IMG/VR virus record: IMGVR_UViG_3300020215_000063 | Coordinates: 1 to 48,338 of that record | Length of the DNA stretch: 48,338 nt | Direction: 5' to 3' (one strand) | Source: a virus | Part shown: positions 1 through 48,338 of the stretch, one piece after another | How positions within the stretch are numbered: the first letter of the stretch is position 1 | How the letters are laid out: every line of letters begins with the position of its first letter | Program-made: the position numbers and the translations under genes | The notes under the pieces: generated by a model | Databases searched by the model: none | What the model was told of the DNA's origin: nothing | Seen by the model: the letters and a program-made list of their open reading frames with translations, nothing else

Positions 1-783
1 GAACCGGGCGGCCTCGGTTGAGATCCCCGAGAGGTCGAAGAGGACGATCCATTTGTTCTTGATGGCCTGCCTCCAGAAGTCGGTCATCCCGTGGTGCAAC
101 CACACCGACGGGGACTCGATGATCCGGAGCGCCCGCCAGGCCGGGCGGGTCTCCATCCAGTACTGGTTCGGGTTCTTCCCCCCGTTCTGGGGGAGGGACT
201 GCTCGATCATCCGGAACACCCGGACGGCATCCGCATCACTCGCGGTGTCGAGCATCCAGTGGTGCTCGCGGCTGTCGGGCTCGAACAGCTTGAGCATCAC
301 ATGCAGGGGCGGCTGCTCGGGGAGCGTCAGGAACACGCGGGTGGCCGCCTCGGCGTACTGCTTAATCCAGGGGTTCTGCTGCCCGTCTTTTTGGCCGCGC
401 TTCGCCCACACCGCTTGCAGGAACTCCTCCCCGATCCGCTCGATCTCGGTCTGCCGGTCGAGGCCCATGCCTGTGGGCGGGCGGACGAAGGGCCAGGGAA
501 GCGCCTTGTCCGTCATCGCGGCGACGTCGACGAACGTCCGCGACTGGTGGCCGTCCACCACCATCCAGCCCGCTGTATCCCTCACGGTGGTCCCGTGCAA
601 ATCGTAAAGGGCCAGGCAGGCCTTCCGTTCACGGGCCATGCGTCGGAAGCGGGCCTTGAGCCCTTCGGATTTACCCGTCCCCCGGTTTCCGATCACCAGC
701 CCGCAGGGGTACGCGGCGGCGTTCTGGACCGAGGACTTGGTCCGTGGCTTCGGGGTGCCGAACAGGTAGTTGAAGATCATCAT
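1..783 (-). CDS. HerA/VirD4-type ATPase, N-terminal part (continues at window end)
   Basis: This is the first 261 codons of a gene cut by the left edge. Near residue 32 it has a Walker A loop, GNRGTGKS, typical of P-loop DNA-pumping ATPases. The last visible strand, WIVLFDLSG, resembles the core sheet of coupling-protein ATPases. The reading frame ends exactly at base 1 and resumes in frame at base 48338, where a Walker B-like LHLVLEEAG lies 18 residues on; the joined product is about 495 residues. The start ATG (the first of two adjacent ATGs) overlaps the upstream stop as ATGA. The family moves or unwinds DNA (conjugative coupling proteins, HerA helicases). Which job it does here is not shown, and no relaxase is visible. 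FtsK-like segregation ATPase is an alternative. Confidence 0.8.
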   Translation of the reverse strand, partial: MMIFNYLFGTPKPRTKSSVQNAAAYPCGLVIGNRGTGKSEGLKARFRRMARERKACLALYDLHGTTVRDTAGWMVVDGHQSRTFVDVAAMTDKALPWPFVRPPTGMGLDRQTEIERIGEEFLQAVWAKRGQKDGQQNPWIKQYAEAATRVFLTLPEQPPLHVMLKLFEPDSREHHWMLDTASDADAVRVFRMIEQSLPQNGGKNPNQYWMETRPAWRALRIIESPSVWLHHGMTDFWRQAIKNKWIVLFDLSGISTEAARF

Positions 784-974
784 TCCTCCAAGGAAAGCAG
801 CAGGCGGCGGTACTCCTGCTCGCGGACCATCAAAGCAATCTCGTCCGCCTCGTCGCGCGACATCTCCCCGGCCGTGACTCGCTGGTCGAGTCCGGCTTTC
901 AGCTCGCGCATCGTCCGGTTGTACAGGTCGATCTTCTGGAGTTGCTGCCTGTGGCGGCGGGGCGAGCGCCACAT
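780..974 (-). CDS. Small charged hypothetical protein
   Basis: 64 residues, basic at the N terminus (MWRSPRRHRQQ) and then acidic and helical, with many Glu and Arg. It probably forms a helical hairpin or coiled coil. No family recognised. Its stop overlaps the ATPase start by 4 bp (ATGA), so the two are translationally coupled and may work together. Confidence 0.65.
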   Translation of the reverse strand: MWRSPRRHRQQLQKIDLYNRTMRELKAGLDQRVTAGEMSRDEADEIALMVREQEYRRLLLSLEE

Positions 975-1000
975 TGACCTTCAGTTTACCATGGTCCGTT

Positions 1001-1375
1001 TCATGGCTTCTCCTTGCGGAGAACCTTCTGCGCCTCCTCGATGAAGTGGGCGGCAGCCTGTGCCCGCAGCGCCTCCTCCTCGTCCGGGAGCAAGTGCATC
1101 GAGCCGATCAGTCGGTCCTGGCGGTGGTGCTCCCGTCGGAGGAGGAACATCCGCCAGGCCACGTCGAGCCCGAACCATTCGATGAAGCCCATCCCGAACT
1201 TCCTCCACAGCCACACCAGCAGGACGACAACGATGAACAGCTCAACCACGAGGAACGCGGGCTGCGCCTTCCTCAGCGCCTCCTGGTTGTAGCGCTCCTG
1301 CTGCTCCCGTTCGAGCTGGCGGACCGCCGCCCACTCGGCCTCGGTCATCGGTTTGTGGCTCTTCGCGGTGTTCAT
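1001..1375 (-). CDS. Single-pass membrane protein with charged tails
   Basis: 124 residues. A charged helix is followed by a strong membrane segment at about residues 40-60 (FLVVELFIVVVLLVWLW) and a charged C-terminal helix with many Arg, His and Glu. An in-frame ATG lies 21 bp upstream, but the chosen start has a GAGGA Shine-Dalgarno 8 nt before it. It sits just upstream of the ATPase gene pair, so a role as a membrane partner of that ATPase is possible but unproven. Confidence 0.6.
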   Translation of the reverse strand: MNTAKSHKPMTEAEWAAVRQLEREQQERYNQEALRKAQPAFLVVELFIVVVLLVWLWRKFGMGFIEWFGLDVAWRMFLLRREHHRQDRLIGSMHLLPDEEEALRAQAAAHFIEEAQKVLRKEKP

Positions 1376-1700
1376 GGCCAAGTCCTCGCGACGCATGATT
1401 ATAAGTAGGAGCGACTTAGGAGATTTGTGGAAAATGAACGATAGCGTGGGGGAGTGGTGTCCGGTCTCGGATGAGCGTCTGCGCTCGGGCCGCGCGAAAG
1501 CGTCTCGGGAGGGCGTTTTCTGAACGTGAGTACACTAAAAAAGAGTAAAAACGCGGGCCTGGAGTAGGTAAAAGTGTCTCGTAAACCAGGTGTCCTGCAA
1601 TTTTCGTCAACCAAAAAAAATAACTCGGCGATAAAATCCCCCACCTCGCGGCAGGGGTGCTTCTACCCGGTTGGGCAGAAGCTGGGTCTTCGGGTTCGCC
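1376..1700. other. Intergenic stretch without a convincing gene
   Basis: About 325 bases with A-rich runs that stand out from the GC-rich surroundings. Short open frames exist on the minus strand but have poor composition and no start signal. It probably holds control sequences for the minus-strand genes to its left. No clear -35/-10 pair was found. Confidence 0.4.
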
Positions 1701-1790: not shown

Positions 1791-1801
1791 GTCGGACTCC
1801 T

Positions 1802-2551
1802 TCACGGGACGAGGGTCAGGGACGGGTCGGGGAGGATCAGGCCGTTGAGCCGGATCGTCTGGGCGACGAACGCTTGCGGGGCGGCGACGGCGCGCGGCTT
1901 CAGCACCTCGGTGAAGGCGTTGAAGAGCGACCAGGCCGTCCGGGGGCGGAAGTCTTCGTGCGGCGGCTCTTCCCAGGCCTCGCAGACCTTGGGCAGTTGC
2001 AGGGAGGAGATGATCCCCTTGCGGAACGCGGTCAGGATGACGTGGGACGCCTGGGAGGCGCTCAGCTCCATCTCGGCCATGCGGCGAATCCGTTCGCCTT
2101 CGGCTTCCTTGAACGACGTGAGGGAGGCGACCGCGTTGGAGATCGCGGTCCCGAAGGCCTTCATGCCGTTGATCGTGTGCTTCCGGCGGACGAGCAGTTC
2201 GGCCCTGAATGCGAGGTTGTCGCAGACAAAAACTCTGGAGCCGCAGGCCATACCGAGCGGGAACGACCGGTCCACGGAGTTGCGGACGCCGACCGTGAGG
2301 CCGACGCCCTGGGCGAGCGGGGTTTCGAGGTCGAGGACACCGAAGAACCGGGCATCCGAGCGGGCCAGGCCGTACTTCTCGGACTTGATCGTGTACCCGG
2401 CCCCGTGGAGGGTTTCCTTCACGGTGTCGAGCACCTTGACGTGACTGACGGGGTGCCAGCGGCCTTCCGGCGGCGGCGTTTTGCACTGCCTGAGTTCCTC
2501 CAGGGTGGCGAGCTTGCCACCGGCGTGGAGGATCAGCGTACCTGCGGACAT
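1802..2551 (-). CDS. DUF932-type phage/plasmid protein
   Basis: 249 residues. The middle region (VGVRNSVDRSFPLGMACGSRVFVCDNLAF) matches the style of DUF932 proteins, which are widespread on phages and plasmids but have no settled function. The start MSAGTL is chosen over an ATG 12 codons upstream because AAAGGA lies 7 nt before it. It belongs to the Shine-Dalgarno-using block that includes the ATPase rather than to the lysis genes to its right, from which a hairpin-rich gap separates it. Confidence 0.75.
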   Translation of the reverse strand: MSAGTLILHAGGKLATLEELRQCKTPPPEGRWHPVSHVKVLDTVKETLHGAGYTIKSEKYGLARSDARFFGVLDLETPLAQGVGLTVGVRNSVDRSFPLGMACGSRVFVCDNLAFRAELLVRRKHTINGMKAFGTAISNAVASLTSFKEAEGERIRRMAEMELSASQASHVILTAFRKGIISSLQLPKVCEAWEEPPHEDFRPRTAWSLFNAFTEVLKPRAVAAPQAFVAQTIRLNGLILPDPSLTLVP

Positions 2552-2959: not shown

Positions 2960-3448
2960 TCAGCCGAGAGTGATACGCCTCCAAAAAAGGGTGTACTTGG
3001 CAATGTCGAGTGCCCCCTGGAAGCCGTTGTTCTTGTTCATCGTGTACCCGTCCTTGTCCGCAATCTTGTACGTCCAGTGCAGGTGAATCCCGGTCGAGTC
3101 CCCGGTGGTCCCCATGATCCCGATGGGATCGCCGGAGCCGACGTATTGACCATTCTGCACCAAGAAGGCAGAGAGGTGGGCGAGGGTGGACTTCCGGCGG
3201 TGGCCTTCGTTGTTGTAGGGGCGGCTCAGGATCTCCACGTACTTCCCGTATCCGACGTCTCCTTCGTCTTCGAGGCGGACATACCCCTCGTGCGGGGCGA
3301 ACACGTACACGTCCGTCCGGCCACGGATCAGCGGGGCGAAGTCGATGCCGTTGTGTCCCTTGTGGCCGTATTTCTTGTAGTAGCTCGGGCGATCACCAAA
3401 CTTCTGGGAGATGCGGGCGACGGCCTCTGGTTCGGGGGCGTAGAGCAT
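2960..3448 (-). CDS. M23 (LytM-type) peptidase, probable endolysin
   Basis: 162 residues. Zinc-site residues of M23 metallopeptidases are visible: H32 and D36 (GHNGIDF), LAHLS near residue 90, and the HxH motif in GIHLHW near residue 125. The family cuts peptide cross-links of peptidoglycan. There is no signal peptide, which fits release through the adjacent holin-like protein. Together with the lysozyme-like protein at 36.9 kb and the M23 domain on the large virion protein, it gives three separate wall-cutting enzymes in this genome. Confidence 0.85.
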   Translation of the reverse strand: MLYAPEPEAVARISQKFGDRPSYYKKYGHKGHNGIDFAPLIRGRTDVYVFAPHEGYVRLEDEGDVGYGKYVEILSRPYNNEGHRRKSTLAHLSAFLVQNGQYVGSGDPIGIMGTTGDSTGIHLHWTYKIADKDGYTMNKNNGFQGALDIAKYTLFWRRITLG

Positions 3449-4008: not shown

Positions 4009-7000
4009 TTAGCGGGAAAGGCGGACAAAGACTTGGACGGAGCACTCGGACTTCTTCCAGGGCTTCCACCAGGGGTTGTTCTTCTTGCAGGGTTCCAGGG
4101 CGTAGCCAACCGACTGGTCGTTCTCCCCGGCCTTCATCCCGACACCCGGCGCGGAGGAGATGGTGATTTCGTCGCCTACGTTGATCTCCCCGTTCTCGGT
4201 GGTGACGTAGAGCGGGACGCGGCCGACGAGCGCGACCGGAACCTGTTCCTCCGCCGGAAACTGGGCACCATTGAATGCGCCGAGGTCCACGGACGGGGCG
4301 GTGGAGTAGATGCCGATGAGCTTGTCGCCCTTCACAGCCTTCTTAACGAAAACGGGGTTCTGAAGGTCGAGTGAGAGGAGCGTGGCGGCGGTTAGGGTCT
4401 TGTCCCGCGTCGGGTAGCGCTCGGCCACGTCGTACAGGGTCATCGCGGTGCTGGATGAGTAGACAACACCTTCCGTGTTGTTGTCCGTGTTGCAGTTCGC
4501 ATCCGAGCCGAAGCATCCGCCTCCGCCGGACACCTGGAGTCGGGAGTCGGCGTTGATCGTGCCGACACCCACCTCCCCACGGAAGTACACCTGCTGGTCA
4601 CTTCCACGGATCTCCATGTAGCTGTTGCCTCCCTGCTTGCCGATGGAGAACCCGCCGTTGGAGTCGTCGTGGGCGTTGATCTCGATGGCGGTTCCCGTGA
4701 CCATGGCCTGGGTCATAGACGAACAGTTGCGGCAGATGCCCCAGTTGTTGTCGTTGTTTCCGGCGAGCCAGAGGATCGCGCCGTTGTTGATGGAGACGCT
4801 CTGGGCGAAGTTCACGTTCCCACCGTTGCGGATGATGAAGTGGCGGCCGACACCGAACTCGTCGAGGTACCAGTAGTCGAGACCGGCGTCATACCCCGAG
4901 TCCCACTGCTTGTTGTCCGTGGTGTCGTGCAGACGCCAGATCGGGCTCGTGGCCCGGACTTCCAGACTCTGTTGAGGAGCGGTGGTGCCGATACCCACGC
5001 GGTTGTTCCCGGCATCGACTACGAATGTCGGACCGTCGATCACTGCACCCGTCTCCACAAGGAGAGCGCCGGACGAGGCGAGAAGGCGGTTTGCCTTGAG
5101 GGTCGAGCCGGAGAGCATCCCGGCCACCTCCAGTTCTCCCGCACCGGCAGCGACGAACCGGAGGTTGTTGGCTCCGAGCGTGATGCTCGTGGCTCCGTCC
5201 ACGTCGAGGGAGTCTTGCAATTCCGCGAAGTCGAGGGAGTTCCCCACCACCTCAGACTGACCGATCACGTCGCCGTCGATGGTCAGGTTCGAGGACCCGT
5301 CCGTGGTGATCTCTCCGAAGTCCGTGCTGACACTCAGGTCCGCCTTGTCGAGCGAGCCGTCGGTGATCGTGCCGTCCGCCTCCAGGTCCCCCGCCGCGGC
5401 GAAGTCCCCGGACTCGGGCACGTCGTCGTCGGTGCCGCATCCCGCACGGCCAGCGGCGTTCGTGTCCACGGTGTCACAGTTCACGAGGTTGTCGACGTTC
5501 AGCGTCGATCCGGAGAGGTTCGCGCGGACCTTCAAGGCACCGGTCATGGTGTCGCCGGAGGTGTTGACGAAACGCGCGTCCGCGCGGCTGGTCAGGTAGT
5601 AGAGGTTGCTCCCTTCCGCCAGGTCAGAGGTCGTGTTGTCGGACAAGTCGTCGGCCGTGTCCACGCCCACCCCGTCCACCCCACACACGAGCGCTCCCGC
5701 CGAGTTCGTCTCCAGGGCCGTGCAGGACCGGAAGATGCCGAAGTTGGCGGCCCCGTCCACCGTGAGCGTCGATCCCGACAGGCTGTTTCGTACTTTCAAA
5801 GCCCCGGTCATCGTGTCGCCCTGTTTGAGCACGTAGCGGGCGTCCGTCGCGGCCTGGTCGAAGCTCGCTCCTCCGGCGTCGTCCGCACCGCAGACGAGAG
5901 CCCCCGCGGAGTTGGTTTCGAGAGCCGTGCAAGACTTGAAGCTGCCAAAGGTCATGCCGCTGTCGACGTTCAAGGTGGTCCCGGAAAGGCTCCCCCGCGT
6001 TTTCAGGGCACCGGTCATCGTATCCCCGCTAATGTTCACGTACCGGGCGTCCGTGCGGGAGGAGAGGTAATACAGTCGGGAGCCTTCCGGTAGGTCGGAG
6101 GTCGAGCGGGTGCCGAGCCACGTCAGGGCGCGGGAGTCGTTGTGGTACTGGGTGTGGTCGTCGTCCGCGAGGCCCCCGAGGGAGCCGTGGTCCACGCCCG
6201 CAGGCAGGACTGCCGCCGAGATCGCAGCGCCCGCGTCGTTGTAGGTGAAGTCGATCGAGAGGGTGTCGGTCAGCGTCGCACCGGCCGAGTCCTGGGCACG
6301 CTCGTCAGTGAAGTAGAGGTTTCCGCTCTCGGAGAGGTCCGCCGTGGTGTTGTTCGACAGGTTGTCATCCGCGAGGGAGCCGTCGTTGTTCGTGAAGACG
6401 TTCGTCACGTCCGTGAGGAGGGTTTCCAGCTCCGCCTCGGTGTCCGCCTCGGTGTTCTTCAGGAAGATGGTGTCCAGGGAGCCGGTGGAGGTCCGCAAGT
6501 ACTGGCTGTCGAAGAAGGTCTTCAGGGAGCCGGTCGAGGAGACGAGCAACTGCGGGAAGAAGGCGGCCTTCAGTGCCCCCGTCGAGCTGAGGAGTGCCCC
6601 GTTGGGGTTGGTGGCGACGATGGTCAGCACGTTCCCGGTGCCGAAGGTCGAGGCGGCCCCTCCCGTGTCGTCCGTCCCGCAGGACAGCACCCCGGACGAG
6701 TTCGTCTCCAGGGCGGAGCACGAGGCGAGCCCCGCGAGCGTGAACGTGCCGTCGGCGGCGATCCGGAACCGCTCCGTGGGCGAGTACTGGCTGGCGCTGT
6801 CCTCCGTGCGGAACGCGATGAAGTTGCTGGACGGGGTGGAGTGCCCGGCCACGTCCATGTAGAACGCCCCGCCGCTCGCCAGCCCGAAGCCCGCCTCTTG
6901 CCCGGCACTCCCCGCGTGGAACACGGCCCCGGCGGACCCGATCTTCCCGACGGCGCTGATGTCGAGGAGCGATCCGTTGAGGCCCCAGGTGATGGACGAC

Positions 7001-7710
7001 CCGGGGGAGAGCGTCCCGATGCCGACTTCGTTCCCGGCGGCGTCCACGAAGAGCGTACCGGCATCGAAGGTGGCGTTCCCCCGGACCACCAGCACGCCGG
7101 AGGAAGTGAGGGTGTCTTGCGCGTGTATGGTGCGGCCGGACGCCGTCCCGACGACTTCCAGTCCGTCCCCGGCAGAGATCAGGAGCTTGCCCGTCATCGT
7201 GTCACCCGACGCATTCACGAACCGCGCGTTGTTCAGGGTGTCGAAGTAGGCCTTGAGTGCCCCGGTCGAGGTGCGGAGGTACTGGCCGTCCAGGTAGGTA
7301 CGGAGCGATCCGGTCGAGGAAGCGAGGAAGATCCCTCTAAACGTGTTGGCGAGCGCCCCCGTCGAGGTGGCGTTGTCCATCGCCTGCATCAGGGTGATCA
7401 CGTTCCCGGACCCGAAGTTCCCGGTCCCCCCTCCCGTCCCGCAGTTCCCAAAGGACATCATCCTTCCGCTCCCGCCGCCGGACTTCAGACAGTCACCCGC
7501 TGTTCCGAACGCGGTTGCTCCGGTGCCGACGCCAATGGCTCCATGAGTAGAAACCTCGAACAGCCGCTCCCCCTCGGGGTTCTCGATGCGGAGGGCGGGC
7601 TGGACGAACGCGAAGTAGCTCGCGGCGGCCGTGATGATCAGGCCGACACCGGCGAAGCCGCTGATGACGATCCGGTTGGAACGGCCTTTGGGGGCGTCTG
7701 TGATGCTCAT
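4009..7710 (-). CDS. Long repeat-rich tail fibre with N-terminal membrane segment
   Basis: 1233 residues. Residues ~14-36 are hydrophobic (VISGFAGVGLIITAAASYFAF), unusual for a fibre. The body holds many Ser/Thr/Gly-rich beta units of the kind seen in trimeric phage fibres: SGDTMTGALKV, SCTALETNSAGALVCG, VGIGT motifs and SGSTL. The C-terminal ~160 residues (from DVAERYPTRD on) form a distinct globular region, perhaps a trimerisation or chaperone domain. The gene overlaps the upstream collagen-like gene by 4 bp. Role: host binding. A surface adhesin is the alternative, given the membrane segment. Confidence 0.75.
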   Translation of the reverse strand: MSITDAPKGRSNRIVISGFAGVGLIITAAASYFAFVQPALRIENPEGERLFEVSTHGAIGVGTGATAFGTAGDCLKSGGGSGRMMSFGNCGTGGGTGNFGSGNVITLMQAMDNATSTGALANTFRGIFLASSTGSLRTYLDGQYLRTSTGALKAYFDTLNNARFVNASGDTMTGKLLISAGDGLEVVGTASGRTIHAQDTLTSSGVLVVRGNATFDAGTLFVDAAGNEVGIGTLSPGSSITWGLNGSLLDISAVGKIGSAGAVFHAGSAGQEAGFGLASGGAFYMDVAGHSTPSSNFIAFRTEDSASQYSPTERFRIAADGTFTLAGLASCSALETNSSGVLSCGTDDTGGAASTFGTGNVLTIVATNPNGALLSSTGALKAAFFPQLLVSSTGSLKTFFDSQYLRTSTGSLDTIFLKNTEADTEAELETLLTDVTNVFTNNDGSLADDNLSNNTTADLSESGNLYFTDERAQDSAGATLTDTLSIDFTYNDAGAAISAAVLPAGVDHGSLGGLADDDHTQYHNDSRALTWLGTRSTSDLPEGSRLYYLSSRTDARYVNISGDTMTGALKTRGSLSGTTLNVDSGMTFGSFKSCTALETNSAGALVCGADDAGGASFDQAATDARYVLKQGDTMTGALKVRNSLSGSTLTVDGAANFGIFRSCTALETNSAGALVCGVDGVGVDTADDLSDNTTSDLAEGSNLYYLTSRADARFVNTSGDTMTGALKVRANLSGSTLNVDNLVNCDTVDTNAAGRAGCGTDDDVPESGDFAAAGDLEADGTITDGSLDKADLSVSTDFGEITTDGSSNLTIDGDVIGQSEVVGNSLDFAELQDSLDVDGATSITLGANNLRFVAAGAGELEVAGMLSGSTLKANRLLASSGALLVETGAVIDGPTFVVDAGNNRVGIGTTAPQQSLEVRATSPIWRLHDTTDNKQWDSGYDAGLDYWYLDEFGVGRHFIIRNGGNVNFAQSVSINNGAILWLAGNNDNNWGICRNCSSMTQAMVTGTAIEINAHDDSNGGFSIGKQGGNSYMEIRGSDQQVYFRGEVGVGTINADSRLQVSGGGGCFGSDANCNTDNNTEGVVYSSSTAMTLYDVAERYPTRDKTLTAATLLSLDLQNPVFVKKAVKGDKLIGIYSTAPSVDLGAFNGAQFPAEEQVPVALVGRVPLYVTTENGEINVGDEITISSAPGVGMKAGENDQSVGYALEPCKKNNPWWKPWKKSECSVQVFVRLSR
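5440..6110 (-). repeat. Internal repeats in the long fibre gene
   Basis: Several ~75-85 codon units follow one another, each with an ADARYV/ADARFV element, then SGDTMTGALK, SLSGSTLxVD, SCTALETNSAGALVCG and an Asp-rich linker. A fourth, more diverged copy of the SGDTMTG block lies near 7190. The copies differ enough in DNA to suggest old duplications kept under protein-level selection. Confidence 0.7.
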
Positions 7711-18558: not shown

Positions 18559-19572
18559 TCAGGCGAGGGTGGGCTTCGTGGTCGAGAGCGAGAAGATCGA
18601 GCCCTGGGGCTGGACGACGGCGAACGCGGCGAACTGGGTAACCAGGATCTTCGCCATGACGTTGTCGTGGTCCGTGAACTGCTGCTCGGGGGTCGGCTCT
18701 TCGGCCATCATGAGCTGCCAAGACTGCTTCGTGATGGACGAGTCCAACAGCGCCCAGCGGTAGATGTTGTCCGTGGTCGGGACGCCAAGGGCGTTGCGGT
18801 CGCCGTACTTGAGGGCGACGACCTTCATGGAACCCTTGCCGCCGTAGTAGTTGACGGCGTTGTTCGCGGTCTCCGGCGTGAGGCTGGAGCCGAACAGCTC
18901 GTGGCACTTGATGACCATGTCCATGTCGTTGGCGATGACGATGGTGTCGGGCTGCGGAGCGAAGTAGGTGCCGAAGTCGTCCGGCGTGTTGCGGACCATC
19001 TGGTTGATGGCGGTCGTCAGGTTAGCCTTGGAGAGCGCGGGGGCTCCGGACACGATGTTGCTGAAGGTCACGCCGCCGTAGCTGTGGTCCGTTGCGGCGA
19101 GGGCCTTGGAATCGCTCGTGGCGATGTTGTAGGCGGGCTTGCCGATGGGCGTGATCGTGGTCTGGTCGGCCTCGGAGAACGCCTGCATGGTCATTTCGAG
19201 GTCGAGGACGTTCACCAAGCGCTCCTTGAGGCGCTGGGCGGACTGGACCGTCTGTGCCTGGTTGTAGCGGTTGTTGAACTTGAACATCCGGCGGGTGATG
19301 TCGAGGCGATCACCGTACTGGATCTGCGTCTTGGAGAGTTCGTTACCCTTCTTCGGGTTCACGATCGGGTACTTCTCGTTCTCGTCGACGCGCTGCGCGA
19401 AGCCGGAGAGGCACACCGAGTTGAAGGTGACTTTCTCGCCGTCGCCGGGAGCCCAGGGCATCGAGGAGAAGAGGGAGCGGACGAGGTTGGGGCGGAGGTC
19501 CTTCAGTTGTTCGAGGACGGTGCGCTCCACGTTGTCCACGAATTCATTGAAGGCGACTGTGTTGTAAGGCAT
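18559..19572 (-). CDS. Major capsid protein
   Basis: 337 residues, a normal length for a HK97-fold capsid protein. Features of phage coat proteins: N-terminal FVDNVERTVLEQLKDLRP, a long helix region with RMFKFNNRYNQAQTV, TITPIGKPAYNIATSD, and VIANDMDMVIKCHELFG. Placed directly after the scaffold and decoration genes. Start follows a long C/T-rich leader (ACCCCCTCCTAGCCCCTCCCA) with no Shine-Dalgarno, although this should be the most highly made protein. Confidence 0.85.
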   Translation of the reverse strand: MPYNTVAFNEFVDNVERTVLEQLKDLRPNLVRSLFSSMPWAPGDGEKVTFNSVCLSGFAQRVDENEKYPIVNPKKGNELSKTQIQYGDRLDITRRMFKFNNRYNQAQTVQSAQRLKERLVNVLDLEMTMQAFSEADQTTITPIGKPAYNIATSDSKALAATDHSYGGVTFSNIVSGAPALSKANLTTAINQMVRNTPDDFGTYFAPQPDTIVIANDMDMVIKCHELFGSSLTPETANNAVNYYGGKGSMKVVALKYGDRNALGVPTTDNIYRWALLDSSITKQSWQLMMAEEPTPEQQFTDHDNVMAKILVTQFAAFAVVQPQGSIFSLSTTKPTLA

Positions 19573-20910: not shown

Positions 20911-21208
20911 GCGACGGGAGGGAGGGCTTCATCACCTCGGGCAGGAAGTCGGCGGGCCGGGGCTTGCGCACGTCTTGTGCCGTCTGGTTCTGCTTGCCCA
21001 GCGTGTCTTTCATGATCTGGCTGCGGATGAACAGCGCCCCCATGCGGTCCTGGTCGCGGTTGCAGGTGTAGGACAGTTCCGTCAGCCGCCTATAAAGCGC
21101 CTCCCGCAGTGGCCTGGAGAGCGTTTTGAGGAGTTCCCTGTCCTCCGGGCTGGGGAATAGTTGCTCCTGCGTTTGCCGGAGCAGCCATCGGTTGAGGTAC
21201 TTGAGCAT
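20897..21208 (-). CDS. Helical protein overlapping the portal 3' end
   Basis: 103 residues if it starts within the portal gene: MLKYLNRWLLRQTQEQLFPSPEDRELLKTL reads as a normal amphipathic protein although 119 bp overlap the portal's low-complexity tail in another frame. No start signal is obvious there. An internal ATG (position 21043) would give 48 residues after the portal stop. Both options remain open. Confidence 0.5.
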   Translation of the reverse strand: MLKYLNRWLLRQTQEQLFPSPEDRELLKTLSRPLREALYRRLTELSYTCNRDQDRMGALFIRSQIMKDTLGKQNQTAQDVRKPRPADFLPEVMKPSLPSHDAA

Positions 21209-23246
21209 TGGGCTGGGCGGAAAGGGGCTGCTGGTTCAGTTCCATCTGCTGGAGCTTGCCGAGGAGGTCTTTGACCTGCGTAAGTTTCTCGGAACCCTCC
21301 TCGTCGGTCTTGAGGACGCGCTTCGGGTCGATGCTGGCGAACTCCAGCGTCTCGGCGGCGAGCTTGTCGAGGTCGAGGTTCTGGTAGCCGAGCACAGACG
21401 CGAGCTGGACGAGGAAGTCGGTCGCCGTTTTGAAGTTCTGGGCGTCCTGGTTCTTCATGTCCCCGAGCATGCGCTTGGAATCGACGATGCAATCCGGGAG
21501 CATCCCGCACTCGATGTACTCGGCGGGGTAAACGTACTCTTTCACGAGCGGGATGTAGCTCGTCTCGACCTTCATGTCCTTGTCGATGACGAGGGTGTTG
21601 TCGGTCTCGTTGTAGTTGAGCTTCCGCGTCTTGGTGGTCGTGAAGTCCTCCCGCATCTTCTCGCCCTTGAGCGGGATGTACTGCACCCGCTTTCTCTCAG
21701 GCTTCTTGTCCTTCTTCTTGCTGTTGAGGTTTTTGTAGTCGGAGAGGGGCTTCTTCCCCGCCTTGATGGCTTCCCGGGCCGTCTTCACGTCCTCCTCGGT
21801 CATCTCCTCGTAGTCCTGGACCGTGAGCACCGTGAGCGAGTTTGCGAGGAGCAGGGAGCCGACCGGCCTGAACACCTCGTTTTCGAGACGCTGGAGGCGT
21901 TGCTCGGCCCCGCGGTTGGCCAGGCGGATGCGCTGGGCGAACTCGAAGGCCGTCTTGCTGGTGTCCCCCACCATCTGCTGGTGGTTGACGCCCGTGGCCG
22001 GGATGGTTTGCTTGTCGAACATTTCCACCATCGCCTGGGTGTCGTCGATGCGCGCGATCCCCAGGGGCATGGGGGTGATCTCGCCGTCGATCAACTCGGC
22101 ACCGTACAGGCGGTTGGCGTCCACGTCGATGTAGCTGTCCGCGTTCGCCCCCTTGTAGTTCAGGGCAACCGTCTGGCTCCAGCGGTAGTTGTCCAGGTTC
22201 ATGTTAAAGATCGTCTGCAAGGCCGTGTCCTCGCCCTCGATCCTCTGGGGAAGGCCCATGCCGTAGGGGCAGTGCTGGCCGTCGTACCCCTTGTCGTAGG
22301 AGTCGAAGAACGTCCCCCAGCGCAGCGAACACAGGCCGGGGATGTTCAACCCCGTCGAGCGCAGGACCACGCCGTCCTTCACCTCCTCGTGAATCTTCAG
22401 GGAGGTGTCGAAGATCAGGATGCCCAGGTCGTCATCCGTGGGCGTCGAGGCGTGCCCGTCAGATTCCGTCCCGAAGGACTTGGCGTAGTAGCGGAGCACG
22501 TCGCGGATCTCGTCCTCATAGCGGTAGAGACAGACGTGGCTCCCCTTCGCGATCAGGTCGAGGTTGATGTAGGGGTTCGGTTCGCACCGCCCGAACTCCT
22601 GGGCGAACTGGTTCCAGGTGATGATGCGGCGGCGGAGGCACGAAGGGACCTGGGTCGAGTCGTCGATGTTCGGGTTCCGCCAGCAGTTCATCGGGTTCAC
22701 GGCGCGGACGCCGACCCTCGCGCGGCGGTAGTCGGGGGCCTGGACCGACTCGAAGTTCCCCTTGTCGTCTTTGATCCGGAGCGTGCGGCGGGGGTAGTCG
22801 ATGTACACCTCGAACACGCCGGAACCGAGGACGAAGTAGTCCCGGAAGAACATCTCCTGGTGGAGCTTGTACTGGCAGTCGGAGAGCACCTTCTTGATCA
22901 GGTGCTTCCAGATGATCGTCTTGATGTGGTCGGACGGGCCGAAGGGCTCGAAGCTGAAATCGGGTTCGCCTTCGGTCATCTGCTCGATGCCCTTGTCGAT
23001 GATCGTGCGAGTCCCGCCGAAAAAGATCCTGGACACCTCGTCCGTGGGCTTCATGGTCTGGACGACGTTGTAGATCTTCATGCCCCGGATCGCCTTCGCG
23101 TCCCATCCGGTGTTCCTGCGGTAGTCCCGCATGTACCGCGAATCCTCCTGGTCCCAGTCGCGGAGCTTCCGGTGCTCGTCACTCATCTCTCCGTTTTGAA
23201 GACGCTCCTTGGGGTCGATCTCGTGGTAAAACGGGAACAGGGGCAA
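21090..23246 (-). CDS. Portal protein
   Basis: 718 residues. Large mixed alpha/beta protein with portal-like elements: FFGGTRTIIDKGIEQMTEG, a central ALNYKGANADSYIDVDANRL, and a long C-terminal helical region ending in a Pro/Gln/Ala tail. It follows the large terminase and precedes scaffold, as expected for the dodecameric DNA channel. The start given is TTG; an in-frame ATG at 23186 (MSDEHRKLRD) with GGAG nearby is an alternative. Confidence 0.8.
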   Translation of the reverse strand: MPLFPFYHEIDPKERLQNGEMSDEHRKLRDWDQEDSRYMRDYRRNTGWDAKAIRGMKIYNVVQTMKPTDEVSRIFFGGTRTIIDKGIEQMTEGEPDFSFEPFGPSDHIKTIIWKHLIKKVLSDCQYKLHQEMFFRDYFVLGSGVFEVYIDYPRRTLRIKDDKGNFESVQAPDYRRARVGVRAVNPMNCWRNPNIDDSTQVPSCLRRRIITWNQFAQEFGRCEPNPYINLDLIAKGSHVCLYRYEDEIRDVLRYYAKSFGTESDGHASTPTDDDLGILIFDTSLKIHEEVKDGVVLRSTGLNIPGLCSLRWGTFFDSYDKGYDGQHCPYGMGLPQRIEGEDTALQTIFNMNLDNYRWSQTVALNYKGANADSYIDVDANRLYGAELIDGEITPMPLGIARIDDTQAMVEMFDKQTIPATGVNHQQMVGDTSKTAFEFAQRIRLANRGAEQRLQRLENEVFRPVGSLLLANSLTVLTVQDYEEMTEEDVKTAREAIKAGKKPLSDYKNLNSKKKDKKPERKRVQYIPLKGEKMREDFTTTKTRKLNYNETDNTLVIDKDMKVETSYIPLVKEYVYPAEYIECGMLPDCIVDSKRMLGDMKNQDAQNFKTATDFLVQLASVLGYQNLDLDKLAAETLEFASIDPKRVLKTDEEGSEKLTQVKDLLGKLQQMELNQQPLSAQPNAQVPQPMAAPANAGATIPQPGGQGTPQNALQATAGGAL

Positions 23247-23287: not shown

Positions 23288-23422
23288 CTAGCGCAAGGCG
23301 CGGTAAATGGACGGACGCTTGGGATGCTCTCTTCGCTTGACGCGCTCTTCCATTCGCTGCTTGGCGGCAAGTGCTTCGGGCTCGTCCTCCAGGGGCTCGG
23401 TGGTCTGGGAATAGTCATCCAT
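23288..23422 (-). CDS. Small charged protein between terminase and portal
   Basis: 44 residues: MDDYSQTTEPLEDEPEALAA, then a basic helix (KQRMEERVKRREHPKRPS). Overlaps the terminase stop by 8 bp. Possibly a packaging accessory; no family recognised. Confidence 0.55.
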   Translation of the reverse strand: MDDYSQTTEPLEDEPEALAAKQRMEERVKRREHPKRPSIYRALR

Positions 23423-24677
23423 GCACACCAGCGTAGATCGAGCGGCGGGGTTTTGTCTGCTTCTTCTTCTCGACGAGCTGGGCGGCCATGCCCGCGCACT
23501 GGAACGCATCCGCCCCGTGGCTCCACGGCGTGTCGTGCTCTGGCTCGGGACTGGTCTTCTGGGTCTCGGGATCGAACTTGTAGGCGTACCGCTGAAGACA
23601 GACAATCCCATCGGCGCAGTTCTCGCGGTCCCACCACGAGTTGCCCATGATCGACCGGGCTGCGTCGATGGCGAGCGCCTTCCGTGGGGTCCGCTGGATC
23701 GGCTCCTGGACGCCGGAGAACACGGAGCGCATCTGATTCAGGATGCTCTTCTCCTGGCCCAATAGTTCATTGGCCGCGTCGTGGGGGAGGTAGTGGTTCC
23801 CGTAGGCGTAAGGAAGCTCTTTGAGGTACTTGATGTAGTGACTGAAGTGCTCCCCGGAGTTCTCGTAGTAGCGGATGAAGCGGAACTGCCCGCCGATGGT
23901 CTGCATGAACCATACGGCGGTCTTGTCGTTCCTCCCAAGGTCCCAGTACGTGTTCACGGGCTTCAGGGGGTCGTAACGTACTTCGGTGATCCGCTGCTCC
24001 TCGACGGCCTTCCCGATCTCCTTGGCGAACACGGCACCTGCGACAGCAGCTCGGCACTCCCCGAGCCAGACGTTGCGGTACTCTTCGGGGTCGGTGGCCT
24101 TGCAGTGCTCCATCTCTTGGCGGAGCACGTCCGGGAAGTAGGGGTTCTGGTCGTAGTTCACCTTCCGGACGATGGCGTAGGGCGGCGGATTCGCCACAAG
24201 CCTCTGGTACGTCGGGGAGTCGGGCAGATCGGGGTTGAAGGTGGCGATGATCTCGGAGTCCTTGGCGCGGATCGTGGGGAAGATGACCTTCCACGAGGCG
24301 TCCGAGACGGTTTCCGCCTCCTCCACCCAGAACTTCTTCACGTCGTACATGGATTTGATGTTCGCGATGTTGTGGTGCAAGCCGACGAACGCGAAGCTGG
24401 TCCCGTTCTTCCCCCGGATCTCGGTCTTGAGGACCTGGTAGAAGTCGGACAGGCCGTGGACGGCGATCAGCTCGGCGAGCATCTCGTGGACGGAGTCCTT
24501 GATGGAATTCTGGTACTCGCGGGCGCAGACGATCTTCATCGGCTCGCTGGCACCCACGGCCAGGAGGTAGCGGCCCACGGATTCGGACTTCGCCCCGCCT
24601 CGTCCGCCGTGGAAGACCTTCAGGCGGCAGGGCGTGAAGAGTTCCCGGAAGGCGTAGGGGATTTCAATCGGGATCAT
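23415..24677 (-). CDS. terL: Large terminase subunit
   Basis: 420 residues, normal for PBSX/terminase_3-like motors. Walker A at residues 24-31 (GGRGGAKS), Walker B in KKFWVEEAETVS, and the RNase H-like nuclease with its Asp in YWDLGRND and near the end in HGADAFQCAG. It cuts and pumps phage DNA into the head. Start MIPIEIPYAF overlaps the upstream zinc-ribbon stop (ATGA); a longer frame of 28 extra residues is only that gene's shadow. Confidence 0.92.
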   Translation of the reverse strand: MIPIEIPYAFRELFTPCRLKVFHGGRGGAKSESVGRYLLAVGASEPMKIVCAREYQNSIKDSVHEMLAELIAVHGLSDFYQVLKTEIRGKNGTSFAFVGLHHNIANIKSMYDVKKFWVEEAETVSDASWKVIFPTIRAKDSEIIATFNPDLPDSPTYQRLVANPPPYAIVRKVNYDQNPYFPDVLRQEMEHCKATDPEEYRNVWLGECRAAVAGAVFAKEIGKAVEEQRITEVRYDPLKPVNTYWDLGRNDKTAVWFMQTIGGQFRFIRYYENSGEHFSHYIKYLKELPYAYGNHYLPHDAANELLGQEKSILNQMRSVFSGVQEPIQRTPRKALAIDAARSIMGNSWWDRENCADGIVCLQRYAYKFDPETQKTSPEPEHDTPWSHGADAFQCAGMAAQLVEKKKQTKPRRSIYAGVHG

Positions 24678-29993: not shown

Positions 29994-30707
29994 TTGCGGT
30001 CGCTGACTGTTCTGCCCCCGGCCCCCGAAGGAGAGATCCCAGTTTGGGAGGGAACGGACGCCGAGCTGGAAGAGAAGGTCGCGGAGCTGTCCCGTGGTCG
30101 GCAGTGGGAAGAGATCATCGGCGGCTTCTCCCATCCCCGAAAGATGCCCGGCATCGCCTACGGCTACCCCGCCTCGACGTGCAAGACGGGCTCCAAGCTC
30201 GCGGAGAAGCCCGGGACGGTGTGTAACTCCTGCTACGCGAGGAAAGGGACGTTCCGCTTCGGGAACGTGCAGAAGGCCCTCTGGAAGCGGTACCATTCCC
30301 TGTTCGATCCGCTGTGGACCCCCGCAATCGTCGCCGGGGTGCGTTCCGAAGCCCGGCCAGGGGACCATGTGCGGTTGAACGACTCCGGGGACTTCCAGAG
30401 CCTTAATCACCTGAAGAACATCTTCACGTTGTGCCGCTCGGTGCGGGATGTCCTCTTCTGGGGACCGACGCGGGAGCCGGGGTTACTCAAGCTGATCAAG
30501 CCGGAGGACGTGCCCGACAACCTGACCATCCGCTTGTCCGGGAACCTGCTCAACGGAAAACCCCCGAAGGGATGGCCGTGGACCAGTACGGTCGTCTCGG
30601 AGGATGGGACCTGTCCGACCAGCCAGGAAGGCGGATCGTGTGCGGACTTCGGTTGCTTCGCCTGCTGGAGCCGGGACGTGGCGAACGTGGAGTACGAGCT
30701 GCACTAA
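29994..30707 (+). CDS. GP88-like phage protein
   Basis: 237 residues. Matches the gene product 88 domain of phages (mycobacteriophage L5 gp88 and relatives): GIAYGYPASTCKTGSKL, CNSCYARKGTFRF, HVRLNDSGDFQS, and a closing Cys set (GGSCADFGCFACW). The conserved Cys suggest metal or iron-sulfur binding; biochemical role unknown. Start is TTG: the N-terminal 50 residues read as protein (EEIIGGFSHPRKMPG) and the next ATG would remove part of the conserved block. Followed by a terminator. Confidence 0.75.
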   Translation: MRSLTVLPPAPEGEIPVWEGTDAELEEKVAELSRGRQWEEIIGGFSHPRKMPGIAYGYPASTCKTGSKLAEKPGTVCNSCYARKGTFRFGNVQKALWKRYHSLFDPLWTPAIVAGVRSEARPGDHVRLNDSGDFQSLNHLKNIFTLCRSVRDVLFWGPTREPGLLKLIKPEDVPDNLTIRLSGNLLNGKPPKGWPWTSTVVSEDGTCPTSQEGGSCADFGCFACWSRDVANVEYELH

Positions 30708-41889: not shown

Positions 41890-42142
41890 GATACGGTTCG
41901 ATACGGTAAGGGTGGAAAATCGAGGCATCGAACCGTATCATGGACGGTAACGGTGACCCCAAAAGTCATCCGTTTAGCCTGAAAACACGCAAAAGGGCAG
42001 TTAGCTCAGTTGGTAGAGCGAGCGACTGAAAATCGCTAGGTCGCCGGTTCAACCCCGGCTCTGCCCACTCTAGAAAACAAGGGGTTTTAAGCGAACCCCG
42101 ACCAGTCCAGAGCCCGCGTGATACGGTAAACGGATACGGTAA
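41890..42142. other. attP region with repeated arm-type sites
   Basis: The motif GATACGGTAA or GATACGGTTC appears at 41890, 41900 and inverted at 41930-41939 on the left of tRNA-Phe, with a weaker copy at 41942, and twice on the right at 42120 and 42133. The left copies form a perfect 13-bp inverted repeat (GATACGGTTCGAT/ATCGAACCGTATC, 41890-41902 and 41927-41939). Such repeats flanking a tRNA core are what lambda-type integrases bind at attP. Confidence 0.7.
41995..42067 (+). tRNA. tRNA-Phe (GAA), attP core
   Basis: Cloverleaf: acceptor GGGCAGT/TCTGCCC with a mismatch at the innermost pair (7:66), D stem GCTC/GAGC, anticodon stem AGCGA/TCGCT with loop CTGAAAA, T stem GCCGG/CCGGC. No encoded CCA (unlike tRNA-His). 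It sits between the arm-site repeats and 132 bp before the integrase gene, so it likely serves as the integration core and can restore the host tRNA gene on insertion. Confidence 0.9.
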
Positions 42143-42198: not shown

Positions 42199-43515
42199 GT
42201 GCACCCCTTGGGAGTCCGAACCGTGAAAAATCCTGCTCCGTGGTACTGGGAAAACCGGAACTGCTGGGCCGTCGTCATCGACGGCAAGCGGCACGTCCTG
42301 GGCGAGCATCCGTCCGATGCCCCGCCGCCCCGCAAGAAGAACAACAAGTGGGTCGTCCCGAAGGCCATCCAGGATCGCTATGACGATCTGAAGATGGAAC
42401 TCCGGGGCAAGCCCGTGGTCCCCTCCCCGCACGCCCCGAAGGCCGTGGTCACGGTCGGGGACGTGTTCGAGAAGTTCCTGGAGTGGTGCCAGGGCAACCG
42501 CTCCGAGCGGACCTACGAGTGGTCCCGCAACCACATCCAGTCCTTCGTCAACGCGCTCAAGGCCCGCGGCGAGCCCGCCGGGAAACTCCCCGCCACCGAC
42601 CTGAAGCCGTTCCACGTCTCCGAGTGGGTGGACGAGAACCGCAAGAAGCGGCCCGGCAAGCGGGCCTGGGGGCCGAACCACTCCCGCGGGGCGATCACCG
42701 CGGTGAAGCGTGCCTACGCCTGGGCGGTCAACGAGGGCCACATCGACCGCAACCCCATCCGCGGGGTCAAAAAGCCCCCGGCCAAACGCCGGGAACAGGT
42801 GCTGACCCGCGGGGAGTTCGACCACCTGCTCTCCCAGGTGAAGGACGCGGCATTCCGCGACGTCCTCGAATTCTGCTGGGAGACCGGCTGCCGGGTGCAG
42901 GAGGTCCGGGTCCTCGAAGCCGAGCACTACAAGGCCGACCGCGGCCGGTTCGAGCTGCCCCCGACGCAGGCCAAGGGCAAGAAGCGGTGGCGGCTGATTT
43001 ACCTCACGCCGCGGGCCGAGGAGATCGTCCGGCCGCTCGTCCTCCGGCACCCCGAAGGCCCGGTCTTCCGGAACACCGACGGCAACCCGTGGGACGCCCA
43101 GAACTTCAACTGCCGCTTCTTCCGCCTCCAGCGGCGGCTCGGCCGCGAGGCCCTGGGCGGCGTCGAGCCGGACCCCGAGCTGGTCACGGCCCTGGCGAAG
43201 ACGCTCCCGAGGACGACGCGGGAGAAGGGCGTGGTGCGGCCGAAGACGGAGAAGGAGCTGCTCCGCGAGGCCCGCAAGAAGCTGTCCGGGGACATCGCCG
43301 CGAAGGCCGGGACGAAGTTCGCCCTCACGGCCATCCGCCACTCGTTCGCCACCCGCCTGCTGGAGAGCGGCTGCGACCACGTCACGGTCGCGATGTTGAT
43401 GGGCCACGTAGACGCCGTAATGCTGGCCCGGGTCTATTCCCACGTCGGCGAGCGGACCGACTTCCTCCGGGAAGCCCTGCTCAAAATTGCAGGTGCTTCG
43501 GCTTCGGCGGCGTAG
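42199..43515 (+). CDS. int: Tyrosine integrase
   Basis: 438 residues, GTG start with GAGGG 7 nt upstream. N-terminal arm-binding region, SAM-like core-binding domain at ~85-190 (VGDVFEKFLEWCQGN), and the catalytic domain with R232 (TGCRVQEV), R380 and H381 (AIRHSFAT), H403 (MGHVDAV) and nucleophile Y413 (ARVYSHV). The first His of the usual HxxR box is Thr377, a tolerated variant. Inserts the circular genome at a tRNA-Phe site. Confidence 0.93.
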   Translation: MHPLGVRTVKNPAPWYWENRNCWAVVIDGKRHVLGEHPSDAPPPRKKNNKWVVPKAIQDRYDDLKMELRGKPVVPSPHAPKAVVTVGDVFEKFLEWCQGNRSERTYEWSRNHIQSFVNALKARGEPAGKLPATDLKPFHVSEWVDENRKKRPGKRAWGPNHSRGAITAVKRAYAWAVNEGHIDRNPIRGVKKPPAKRREQVLTRGEFDHLLSQVKDAAFRDVLEFCWETGCRVQEVRVLEAEHYKADRGRFELPPTQAKGKKRWRLIYLTPRAEEIVRPLVLRHPEGPVFRNTDGNPWDAQNFNCRFFRLQRRLGREALGGVEPDPELVTALAKTLPRTTREKGVVRPKTEKELLREARKKLSGDIAAKAGTKFALTAIRHSFATRLLESGCDHVTVAMLMGHVDAVMLARVYSHVGERTDFLREALLKIAGASASAA

Positions 43516-45237: not shown

Positions 45238-45238
45238 G

Positions 45239-46009
45239 TCATCTCCCGAACACGGACTTGATGGCGGAGCGGCACTTATGAATCAGCTCAGCCTCGCTCC
45301 ATTCAGGCTGGGCATTCCCCGAAGCGTTCCACTCACGCATCAGGGCAAGTGTCTTCTCGAAGTCTCCCCCGGTCGCCTCGGCCACTCGACAGGCGGCTCG
45401 GAAACAGGCCCGGTCACCGCCCTCGCCCTGGACGCTCAGAATTCGCCCTATGTACCGACGGACCTTCTCGATCTCGTCCGTCAGCGGGAATGTCGGTCGG
45501 ATCGGCGCGAGCTTCGGCTTCTCGAATTCCTTCAGTAGCTCGACAGGAAAGATGGGCAGTTCTTCTTGTCGAGTAATTCCGTTCTCCCAGCGGTACAGCC
45601 AGTCAGTAGCGGGATGACGCGAGGGGCTTACGGTCACCACGCCATGCGTCAAGATGTCCACGTCCAGGCCGCCGATCTTGATCCGGTTCGGGAACTCCAC
45701 GCCCTCCGGAAGCTGGAAGAAATCGTGGCGACCGCGCGACGTAAGGGACGCCATCGGGGACCGCAACCCAGCGAACGGCCCCTGCCTTGGTCCGTCTTCG
45801 TCCTTCACCAAGAGCCGATCCCACAATCGGAACCCCAGGTTGAACTCGCCCCGCCGAAGCTGGATCTCCAGCGAGGCGCGGTCCATCGGCCCCGTCTCCT
45901 TGAAGGCCAGCGCCTTCCCCTTCAGCAGCCGCAAGCGGTCGCCGTACCCGTAGCTCCGGTATTGCCTGGCCGCGTGGATCTTCATCTCGGCTTCCAACGG
46001 GGACAGCAT
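45239..46009 (-). CDS. Reduced Prim-Pol-like replication protein
   Basis: 256 residues. The middle (TSRGRHDFF, GGLDVDILTHGVVTVSPSRHPATDWLYRWENG) matches the later motifs of bifunctional primase/polymerases: the GxH block and 'G-VV-PSRHP-G--Y-W'. The C-terminal ~90 residues (CRVAEATGGDFEKTLALMREWNAS) resemble the PriCT-type helical domain. The first acidic DxD motif is unclear (LVKDEDGP), so priming activity is not certain. Likely the replication initiator of the element. No helicase domain is present. Confidence 0.65.
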   Translation of the reverse strand: MLSPLEAEMKIHAARQYRSYGYGDRLRLLKGKALAFKETGPMDRASLEIQLRRGEFNLGFRLWDRLLVKDEDGPRQGPFAGLRSPMASLTSRGRHDFFQLPEGVEFPNRIKIGGLDVDILTHGVVTVSPSRHPATDWLYRWENGITRQEELPIFPVELLKEFEKPKLAPIRPTFPLTDEIEKVRRYIGRILSVQGEGGDRACFRAACRVAEATGGDFEKTLALMREWNASGNAQPEWSEAELIHKCRSAIKSVFGR

Positions 46010-46016
46010 ACCTGGG

Positions 46017-46241: not shown

Positions 46242-46321
46242 GGGACCTCTATCAGCCTTTGGCTGTTGATTCGGGGGGAGCGGAGGCGACGGGTGGGCGG
46301 GTACGATAAGCCCCGGAGGGC

Positions 46322-46689: not shown

Positions 46690-46863
46690 GGGTGTGTGGG
46701 GTAGGAAGTAGATGGCCCAGTAACACCGCGAGACGCGCAGCGGTCAGGGAAGAGAGCGGCCGGTGATCCCGCAGGTTTGCAAGCCGACAGGCGCCGCAAA
46801 CCTCTTGCGCGGTCACCCCGCGAACGACCTTGACGGCGAGCATCGAGCGGTACACTTCGGACA
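46690..46863 (-). CDS. ORF with strong start signal but no own stop
   Basis: ATG preceded by AGGAGGAAG at good spacing, giving MSEVYRSMLAVKVVRGVTAQEVCGACRL..., protein-like for about 50 residues. The frame then stays open through the next gene in another frame and joins MKNLHAF in frame at 46507. Either the real stop was lost, there is an assembly error, or it is a ~180-residue protein. End given is where the next gene starts. Confidence 0.4.
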
Positions 46864-47016
46864 TCTCTTCCTCCTTGGGGGGTGAAGCCCTTACTTCCTT
46901 CCGCCAGGCCACCCTGGGGGATAGCCGACGCGAGGTTCGCGTTTGTAATCAATCAGTGCGGGACATTAAGGGGTGCAAACAAGTCCGCGCGGTTTCGCCC
47001 TTCGTTGCGGGGTTCT
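46864..47016. other. Intergenic region downstream of replication-relaxation gene
   Basis: About 150 bases with no convincing gene. It includes CCTTCGTTGC near 46999, repeated about 24 bp later just inside the neighbouring gene end. A small iteron-like or terminator role is possible; nothing firm is seen. Confidence 0.35.
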
Positions 47017-47610
47017 TTAGGGCCTTCGTTGCAGGATTGTTTTCAGGCTTATTGCCTTCCCCCCGCCGTCCGCCCACTGGGCATCCCACCCCTTCCTGCG
47101 GATCTCGTCCAGGGAGACGTACAGGGCGATCCGGTCCACCGCTTCTCCCCACGCCATGAGCCGCATCACCCGCTTCGCGGTCTGGTCCGGTGAATCCGCG
47201 TTGTGGACGACGATCAGGAGCGGGTCCTGGCACCCCCGGTAGCTGTCCATCCGGTCGCGGAACTGGGCCTCGGACTCCCGCCCGGTGTCCATCTCCACGT
47301 TGCAGAACACTCCCGGGTTCCACTCCCCGTCCGGGCGGCGCTTCCCGACCTTCGGCCCCCGGACCCAGTCTCCCCCCGGGAGAGCAATGGCGAACTCGGT
47401 CAGCAGGTACTCGTGCTCGTCCGCGTTCCCGACGTCGTAGCCCGCGTACTGGTACTGCGGCCGTCCGTCCCGGTCTGCATGAAGCACGTTCAGGTACGGG
47501 ATGCGTGCCCGCTTCCGCTTCCGGAGCCTGCGGAGCGTCCGGGCCGCCGCGTGGTATCTGCCCTGGAAGAACTTCCGGGCCACCTGCTCGATAGTCGAGG
47601 GGTGCGTCAT
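47017..47610 (-). CDS. Replication-relaxation-like winged-helix protein
   Basis: 197 residues from the first ATG after the ATPase stop. Winged-helix start (STIEQVARKFFQGRYHAAARTLRRLRKRKRA), then DEHEYLLTEFAIAL, KRRPDGEWNPGVFCNVEMDTGRESEAQFRDRMDSY, the pattern of replication-relaxation family proteins of plasmids and integrative elements. An in-frame GTG at 47682 would restore an extra helix (VDKAVTSWV) and overlap the ATPase end; that start is quite possible. Pairing with a coupling-type ATPase is a known arrangement on actinobacterial elements. Confidence 0.65.
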   Translation of the reverse strand: MTHPSTIEQVARKFFQGRYHAAARTLRRLRKRKRARIPYLNVLHADRDGRPQYQYAGYDVGNADEHEYLLTEFAIALPGGDWVRGPKVGKRRPDGEWNPGVFCNVEMDTGRESEAQFRDRMDSYRGCQDPLLIVVHNADSPDQTAKRVMRLMAWGEAVDRIALYVSLDEIRRKGWDAQWADGGGKAISLKTILQRRP

Positions 47611-47633
47611 GACCCACGACGTGACGGCCTTGT

Positions 47634-48338
47634 CTACGAGCCACCAAACCTGCTGGCCGCCCCGCCCCTCGGGACCGACCACACCTGCGGCGGGAGGTAC
47701 TGGGGCCGCTTGCGGATCTCCTCGATGAGGCGTTCCGTGCGCTTCTTGTTGATGGATGACGGCCATGCGGTGCCCACCAGTCTATCAGTGAGGGGTTCCG
47801 GGGTGACTCCGGCCTTCGTCCGGAGGAAGTACTGCCCGACCTGGAGGTTCGAGACTCTCGTCTCCCACTCCTGCAACTGGAGTTGGGGGGACTTGTAGAA
47901 CTCGTCGGTGACGGTCTTCTGGATCGGCCGGAAGCTGACACCCTCGGTATGCCCCTGCTTCTCCCCGTCGTGGCCCTTTCGGACGGACTTCGTGTGCACC
48001 TCTTCGTGCCCGGCGGTCACGTTCCGCTCTCTCGTGTAGTGGACGGCCAGCGCGTCGAAGCTGGGGTCAACGAGGTCACGCGCCGCGCGGTCGGCCCCGC
48101 TGTTCACCCGGTACCACCTGTGCTCGTCCGTCAAGGACATCAACTGCTCGAAGAGGTCCTGGTCGTGGAAGTCGCGGGACGTCTGGCTCATCGGCTCCCA
48201 GCTCACGCCGCGCTTTCGGTCCTGTTGCAGGGAGTCGATCACGAACGGCGTCACGGTGTCGTTCGCCCCCGCCTCCTCCAGAACGAGGTGCAGCGGGTGG
48301 GGCTTCTGGTCCTCCTCGAACATCTCCCGGGCCGCGTT
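47634..48338 (-). CDS. HerA/VirD4-type ATPase, C-terminal part (continues from window start)
   Basis: 234 codons plus stop, in frame with the part ending at base 1. It has the Walker B-like LHLVLEEAGAND, then SWEPMSQTSRDFHDQDLFEQLMSLTDEHRWYRVNSGADRA, which matches the coupling-protein/HerA pattern after Walker B, and a C-terminal VGQYFLRT region. An internal ATG at 48323 is not the true start, since five in-frame codons link it to base 1. See the N-terminal entry for function. Confidence 0.8.
   Translation of the reverse strand, partial: NAAREMFEEDQKPHPLHLVLEEAGANDTVTPFVIDSLQQDRKRGVSWEPMSQTSRDFHDQDLFEQLMSLTDEHRWYRVNSGADRAARDLVDPSFDALAVHYTRERNVTAGHEEVHTKSVRKGHDGEKQGHTEGVSFRPIQKTVTDEFYKSPQLQLQEWETRVSNLQVGQYFLRTKAGVTPEPLTDRLVGTAWPSSINKKRTERLIEEIRKRPQYLPPQVWSVPRGGAASRFGGS

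Follow-up and report, generated by a model that had tools for sequence, protein, structure and literature searches.

Ends of a probable Gemmataceae phage contig divide one ATPase gene and appear to stop about 30 nucleotides short of meeting

Introduction

Both ends of IMG/VR record IMGVR_UViG_3300020215_000063 lie in minus-strand reading frames that look like parts of an ATPase, which raises the question of whether these are the two halves of one gene on a ring, and whether the ring closes without loss. Our analysis covers the whole virus record (48338 bases, G+C about 62%), referred to here as the window. The original prediction, made from the letters and open reading frames, had taken the window to be a complete circular phage or phage-plasmid genome, or a circularly permuted linear one, with no gap at the joined ends. 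Our results make it highly probable that the window is the near-complete genome of a temperate tailed phage of Gemmataceae (Planctomycetota), with head and tail genes of podovirus type, and that it derives from circular or circularly permuted DNA, both ends lying in one FtsK/HerA/VirD4-class ATPase gene about 30 nucleotides (nt) short of meeting.

A near-complete temperate phage genome tied to Gemmataceae by its attachment site is useful. According to one report, no isolated Gemmata phage genome was available in 2017, and the Gemmata-related phage sequence that it describes, that of the putative Gemmata phage BHS (MF098554), is a partial genome, a 26950-bp fragment (PMC5707555).

Results

One ATPase gene occupies both ends of the contig

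On the minus strand, a frame of 261 whole codons runs from base 783 up to base 1, and the same frame continues from base 48338 through 234 codons to a stop codon that ends at 47634. Joined over the contig ends, it encodes 495 amino acids with no internal stop. Reading the sequence reveals a Walker A motif (GNRGTGKS, residues 32–39) in the first of the two parts and, in the second, a Walker B-like strand (LHLVLEEAG); the two follow each other in order within one domain both in the sequence and in an alignment of homologues (A2), as the original prediction had described. Since two end-running minus-strand frames would agree in phase by chance in one case out of three, the frame alone is weak evidence, and it is homology that carries the proof.

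Indeed, a Gemmataceae genome, the only one with a match among 95 genomes of the family, contains a single stop-free frame aligning with residues 25–479 of the joined protein (E 4.1e-57, 34% identity), with both halves present in order. A search with the resulting two-row alignment detected homologues at 14 places, distributed over 9 of the 397 class genomes. Alignment A2 comprises 12 of these places, the more distant L051 and L052 being left out; L037 and L039 represent a single locus, a contig end truncates L049, and the frame of L046 is short. A profile of the 12 homologues, which omits the window row but uses columns from an alignment that included it, recognised each half of the gene separately, the N-terminal half at E 9.4e-26 and the C-terminal half at E 2.2e-24. 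The two contig ends thus hold parts of one gene.

The neighbours of this gene agree. A gene for a Replic_Relax-like protein adjoins the ATPase in 11 of the 14 homologous loci, downstream in 10 of those 11, and in the window such a gene comes after the C-terminal half, at the contig's right end, the Walker A half being at the left end. Close to that N-terminal half lies a gene for a DUF932 protein (1802–2551), which is 44% identical to a neighbour of the closest ATPase homologue. On the linear contig, about 45 kb separates these two neighbours, and since only a join of the ends brings them together, their arrangement supports a ring. Only one of ten partner proteins scanned (L047, 28.0 bits) passes the PF13814 cut-off of 25.3 bits, which the window's own partner, at 18.2 bits, does not reach.

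The kind of ATPase can be narrowed to some extent. The joined protein gave weak P-loop matches in Pfam, the best being AAA_16 at E 0.014, none above a curated cut-off, and had no match in PHROGs. Among 13 ATPase rows, weak profile matches were to TraG-D_C (4), TrwB (3) and FtsK (2). A profile search of the PDB returned FtsK, HerA and TrwB at E 0.002–0.013, ranked below hits to F1-ATPase that are confined to the P-loop part. Its motifs, these weak profile matches and the gene partner suggest a P-loop ATPase of the FtsK/HerA/VirD4 class, an assignment that has support as far as the P-loop class goes. The HerA/VirD4 label of the original prediction is supported to the same extent and by the gene partner, but the window protein scores above the cut-off of no Pfam family.

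The join appears to lack about ten codons

When the joined protein was compared with its closest homologue alone, both BLAST and MAFFT placed an 11-residue gap at residues 260/261. In the larger alignment, the joined protein has no residues in 10 columns that are filled in all 12 homologues, and these columns come exactly after its residue 261. The distance from the preceding sheet strand to Walker B, for which all 14 places were used, is 32 residues in the joined protein versus 36–47 in the homologues. We then scored the joined protein with 4, 8, 9, 10, 11, 12, 16, 20 or 40 placeholder residues inserted at the join. The best score was obtained with 10 placeholders (165.0 bits versus 156.2 for the plain join, with 161.7 at 8, 9 and 11), and 10 placeholders at nine other positions always scored below the plain join. 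This deficit of 10 residues implies that the contig apparently lacks about 30 nt (10 codons) between its last base, 48338, and its first, giving a true ring of about 48.37 kb; the exact count of missing bases is our estimate.

A ring with no base missing would also account for a reading frame preserved across the join, if the helix of the phage protein were naturally about three turns shorter at this point. Ten to eleven residues correspond to about three helical turns, and such a deletion would keep the helix face. However, the deletion would need to fall exactly at the contig join, none of the 12 homologues lacks more than five well-filled columns in a row, and the strand-to-Walker B distance falls outside the range of its relatives. 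We therefore consider seamless closure improbable. The claims of the original prediction that the ends join with no gap and that the genome is complete do not survive this comparison. A gap at residue 261, which that prediction had named as an observation that would count against it, is indeed present; since both halves match their own parts of one protein family, it speaks against seamless joining and leaves the ring standing. More generally, preservation of the reading frame across a join does not establish that closure is seamless, and comparison with homologues can expose a short missing stretch.

An intact attachment site links the phage to Gemmataceae

Away from the ends, the window contains a complete tRNA-Phe gene that precedes a tyrosine integrase gene (Table 1). 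The motif GATACGGT occurs five times in the window versus 0.53 expected, on both sides of this tRNA gene and nowhere else. Arm-type sites flanking a tRNA gene beside an integrase gene form the layout of an intact attP, indicating that the DNA is not in the integrated state. The probable attachment core, 45 nt of the tRNA gene (42023–42067), has exact matches in only two contigs of the genome collection, both of one Gemmataceae metagenome-assembled genome (MAG; isolate Baikal-deep-G171). One of these contigs carries the whole tRNA-Phe gene and the other only its 3' part, the signature expected of an element inserted in tRNA-Phe. The 5' half of the window's tRNA is also nearly identical to that of the MAG, and integration of an attP with a complete tRNA gene might leave two full tRNA-Phe genes.

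Matches to the integrase occur in 47 of the 95 Gemmataceae-family genomes, the best at 61–64% identity. We examined 16 of 20 fetched integrase loci (L054–L069): a complete tRNA-Phe gene adjoins the integrase in 10, only its 3' part in three (L057, L061, L065), and tRNA-Asn, -Lys or -Ile in the remaining three. We assign the host to Gemmataceae because of the attachment site and the integrase. The intact attP and the integrase also favour an integrating temperate phage over the phage-plasmid that the original prediction had allowed for. No partition gene was found among the scanned proteins (32 of 72 predicted genes).

The whole tRNA-Phe genes beside related integrases, together with the near-identity of the tRNA 5' half to that of the host, would also suit an integrated prophage whose tRNA-Phe is the host gene at attL. 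Against this, the tRNA has arm sites on either side, and two genes to its left (34730–35098 and 38823–39083) have homologues in a phage contig, IMGVR_UViG_3300012001_000001 (G020, 44260 bp). Furthermore, a linear integrated form would not divide the ATPase gene between its ends. We regard this explanation as scarcely credible.

Evidence for and against a ring

Together, the split gene, its neighbours, the internal intact attP and the terminal repeat of the related contig G020 support a circle or a circularly permuted genome, the broader form in which the original prediction holds. Several observations weigh against this reading. The window contig has no exact terminal repeat, direct or inverted, of 5–399 nt, so closure rests on the split gene and not on an overlap, and the ends do not join directly without a gap. 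With either the single protein or the two-row alignment as query, searches of viral contigs yielded no close ATPase relative; none was found in 22 fetched viral records and no close one in plasmids. Closure at exactly the ATPase gene has thus not been seen in another phage. In the closest ATPase homologue, the partner gene lies upstream of the ATPase, not downstream. The portal had no match in the 95 Gemmataceae-family genomes, a set of few genomes searched with no positive control, and an integrated copy was accordingly not found.

The missing repeat, and the occurrence of two to three ATPase homologues in each of three planctomycete genomes, would be in keeping with a linear contig from a larger element with two related ATPase genes, of which one is truncated at the left end and the other at the right. 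However, two independent cuts would have to yield almost exactly complementary halves, and the window is like G020, which has a 99-bp terminal repeat, in structural gene set and size. We judge this explanation very improbable. Each contig end, taken as an exact DNA pattern, had 0 matches in viral contigs. Trimming of a terminal repeat by a general step of the collection is disfavoured, as G020, in the same collection, keeps its own.

A proposed DNA-processing module spans the join

Closure into a ring is ordinary for temperate tailed phages. In the sequence of events that we propose for the phage, the ring would form after infection or excision, and the integrase would recombine attP, with the 3' part of the tRNA-Phe gene as core, with the tRNA-Phe gene of the host. 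The genes for a Prim-Pol-like protein, the Replic_Relax-like protein, the ATPase and the DUF932 protein are grouped around the join, each on the minus strand, and may constitute a DNA-processing module that spans it. The biochemical role of this module, like the mode of packaging, is an inference: it would handle DNA in the circular stage.

Parts of the module recur in planctomycete genomes. The 22.7-kb Gemmataceae contig with the closest ATPase homologue also carries a GP88-like gene, 46% identical to that of the window, and a serine recombinase gene. In the fetched contexts of the 13 further ATPase places, a relative of the window integrase was found in seven, Prim-Pol in three and DUF932 in two, and a tRNA gene stands beside the integrase in four of the integrase-bearing loci. 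These are L075, L080, L083 and L086, planctomycete loci in which a window-type integrase lies beside tRNA-Pro, -Pro, -Arg and -Met, respectively, near the ATPase homologue. No structural protein of the window had a match at E 1e-5 in the 13 contexts, no distal attachment repeat was found for the ATPase-bearing loci on 5 contigs (5 tRNAs), and the Replic_Relax partner was not found in viral contigs.

The ATPase/Replic_Relax pair is common to the window phage and to integrase-bearing planctomycete loci, and this is the more interesting part of our results; together with the host link, the shared module is what gives the record its interest, and it offers a testable starting point for work on DNA processing in such elements. 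A pairing that is similar in description has been reported for Bacillus phages. In Tyrovirus, gp17 (a type IV secretion protein) and gp18 (replication-relaxation) are consecutive genes, and the authors suggest a plasmid stage; podophage Pony encodes both an FtsK/SpoIIIE ATPase and a replication-relaxation protein (PMC9703825, PMC3853050). The hosts of these phages, Bacillus, differ from that of the window phage.

A wider, rather doubtful possibility is that the tRNA integrase, Prim-Pol, the ATPase/Replic_Relax pair, DUF932 and GP88, the non-structural half of the phage, are a backbone that planctomycete integrative elements have in common, and that most of these elements may not be phages. In that case, the phage would combine podovirus particle genes with a DNA-processing module of element type, whose ATPase might move or load DNA while the genome exists as a plasmid-like circle, after excision and before integration.

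Phage genes and relatives

A simple home-made caller predicted 72 genes, of which 32 were scanned against Pfam or PHROGs. The terminase, portal, capsid homologue, tail fibre, M23 peptidase and tyrosine integrase identify a tailed phage (Table 1), and the original prediction was right to call it one.

Table 1 Features of the window and of the matching host contigs
Feature	Position	Strand	Basis
ATPase, N-terminal 261 codons, Walker A	1..783	-	homologues; 12-homologue profile
DUF932 protein, near ATPase N-terminal half	1802..2551	-	PF06067 E 2.3e-7
M23 peptidase, probable lysis or entry enzyme	2960..3448	-	PF01551 E 3.8e-16
Tail fibre-like protein	4009..7710	-	PHROG tail-fibre matches
Major capsid protein homologue	18559..19572	-	28% identical over 98% to annotated capsid, MW202647
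Portal / head-tail connector	21090..23186	-	phrog_332 E 9.2e-7; 64-68% identical in 4 IMG/VR relatives
Terminase large subunit	23415..24677	-	PF04466 E 1.9e-37; phrog_3717 E 5.7e-54
GP88-like protein	30144..30707	+	PF17338 E 3.1e-24
Five GATACGGT arm-type sites, both sides of tRNA	41890..42140	four +, one -	motif count
Complete tRNA-Phe gene inside attP	41995..42068	+	3' 45 nt = probable attachment core
Tyrosine integrase	42223..43515	+	PF00589 E 6e-16
Prim-Pol-like replication protein	45239..46009	-	PF09250 E 2.9e-5, above its cut-off
Replic_Relax-like partner gene, start uncertain	47017..47682	-	PF13814, below cut-off; neighbour conservation
ATPase, C-terminal 234 codons + stop, Walker B and later motifs	47634..48338	-	12-homologue profile
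MAG tRNA-Phe site (L030)	SIAJ01000004.1 6989-7033		
MAG tRNA-Phe site (L031)	SIAJ01000012.1 926-998		

The portal-scaffold-capsid-tail region of G020 is collinear with that of the window, with portals about 67% identical, whereas its G+C content is 45% and, unlike the window, it has no ATPase match and no tRNA was found in it. The capsid matched only one of 50,697 phage records, Podoviridae sp. ctMEh928 (MW202647), a circular genome of 47594 bp whose gene order from terminase to capsid is like that of the window; no integrase or ATPase is named in the stretch of it that is shown, whereas the window has both. No DNA-level relative of window positions 10001–34000 was found among phages. The terminase large subunit, the sole protein compared in this case, is about 38% identical over 95% to those of Pseudomonas phages such as H66 and vB_PaeP_E220, whose hosts differ from that of the window phage and which we take to be F116-like; F116 packages its DNA by the headful mechanism.

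Some further features were noted. Diverged internal repeats lie at 5472–6104, inside the tail-fibre-like gene. Besides the M23 peptidase, a lysozyme-like SLT_3 protein on the plus strand (36916–37548) is a second candidate wall enzyme. An 896-amino-acid protein of the structural region (10407–13097) has a metallo-endopeptidase match at C-terminal residues about 786–890 and is perhaps an ejected wall-cutting protein. Finally, a second tRNA gene, for tRNA-His, lies on the minus strand (29812–29885) in a part of the window with small genes.

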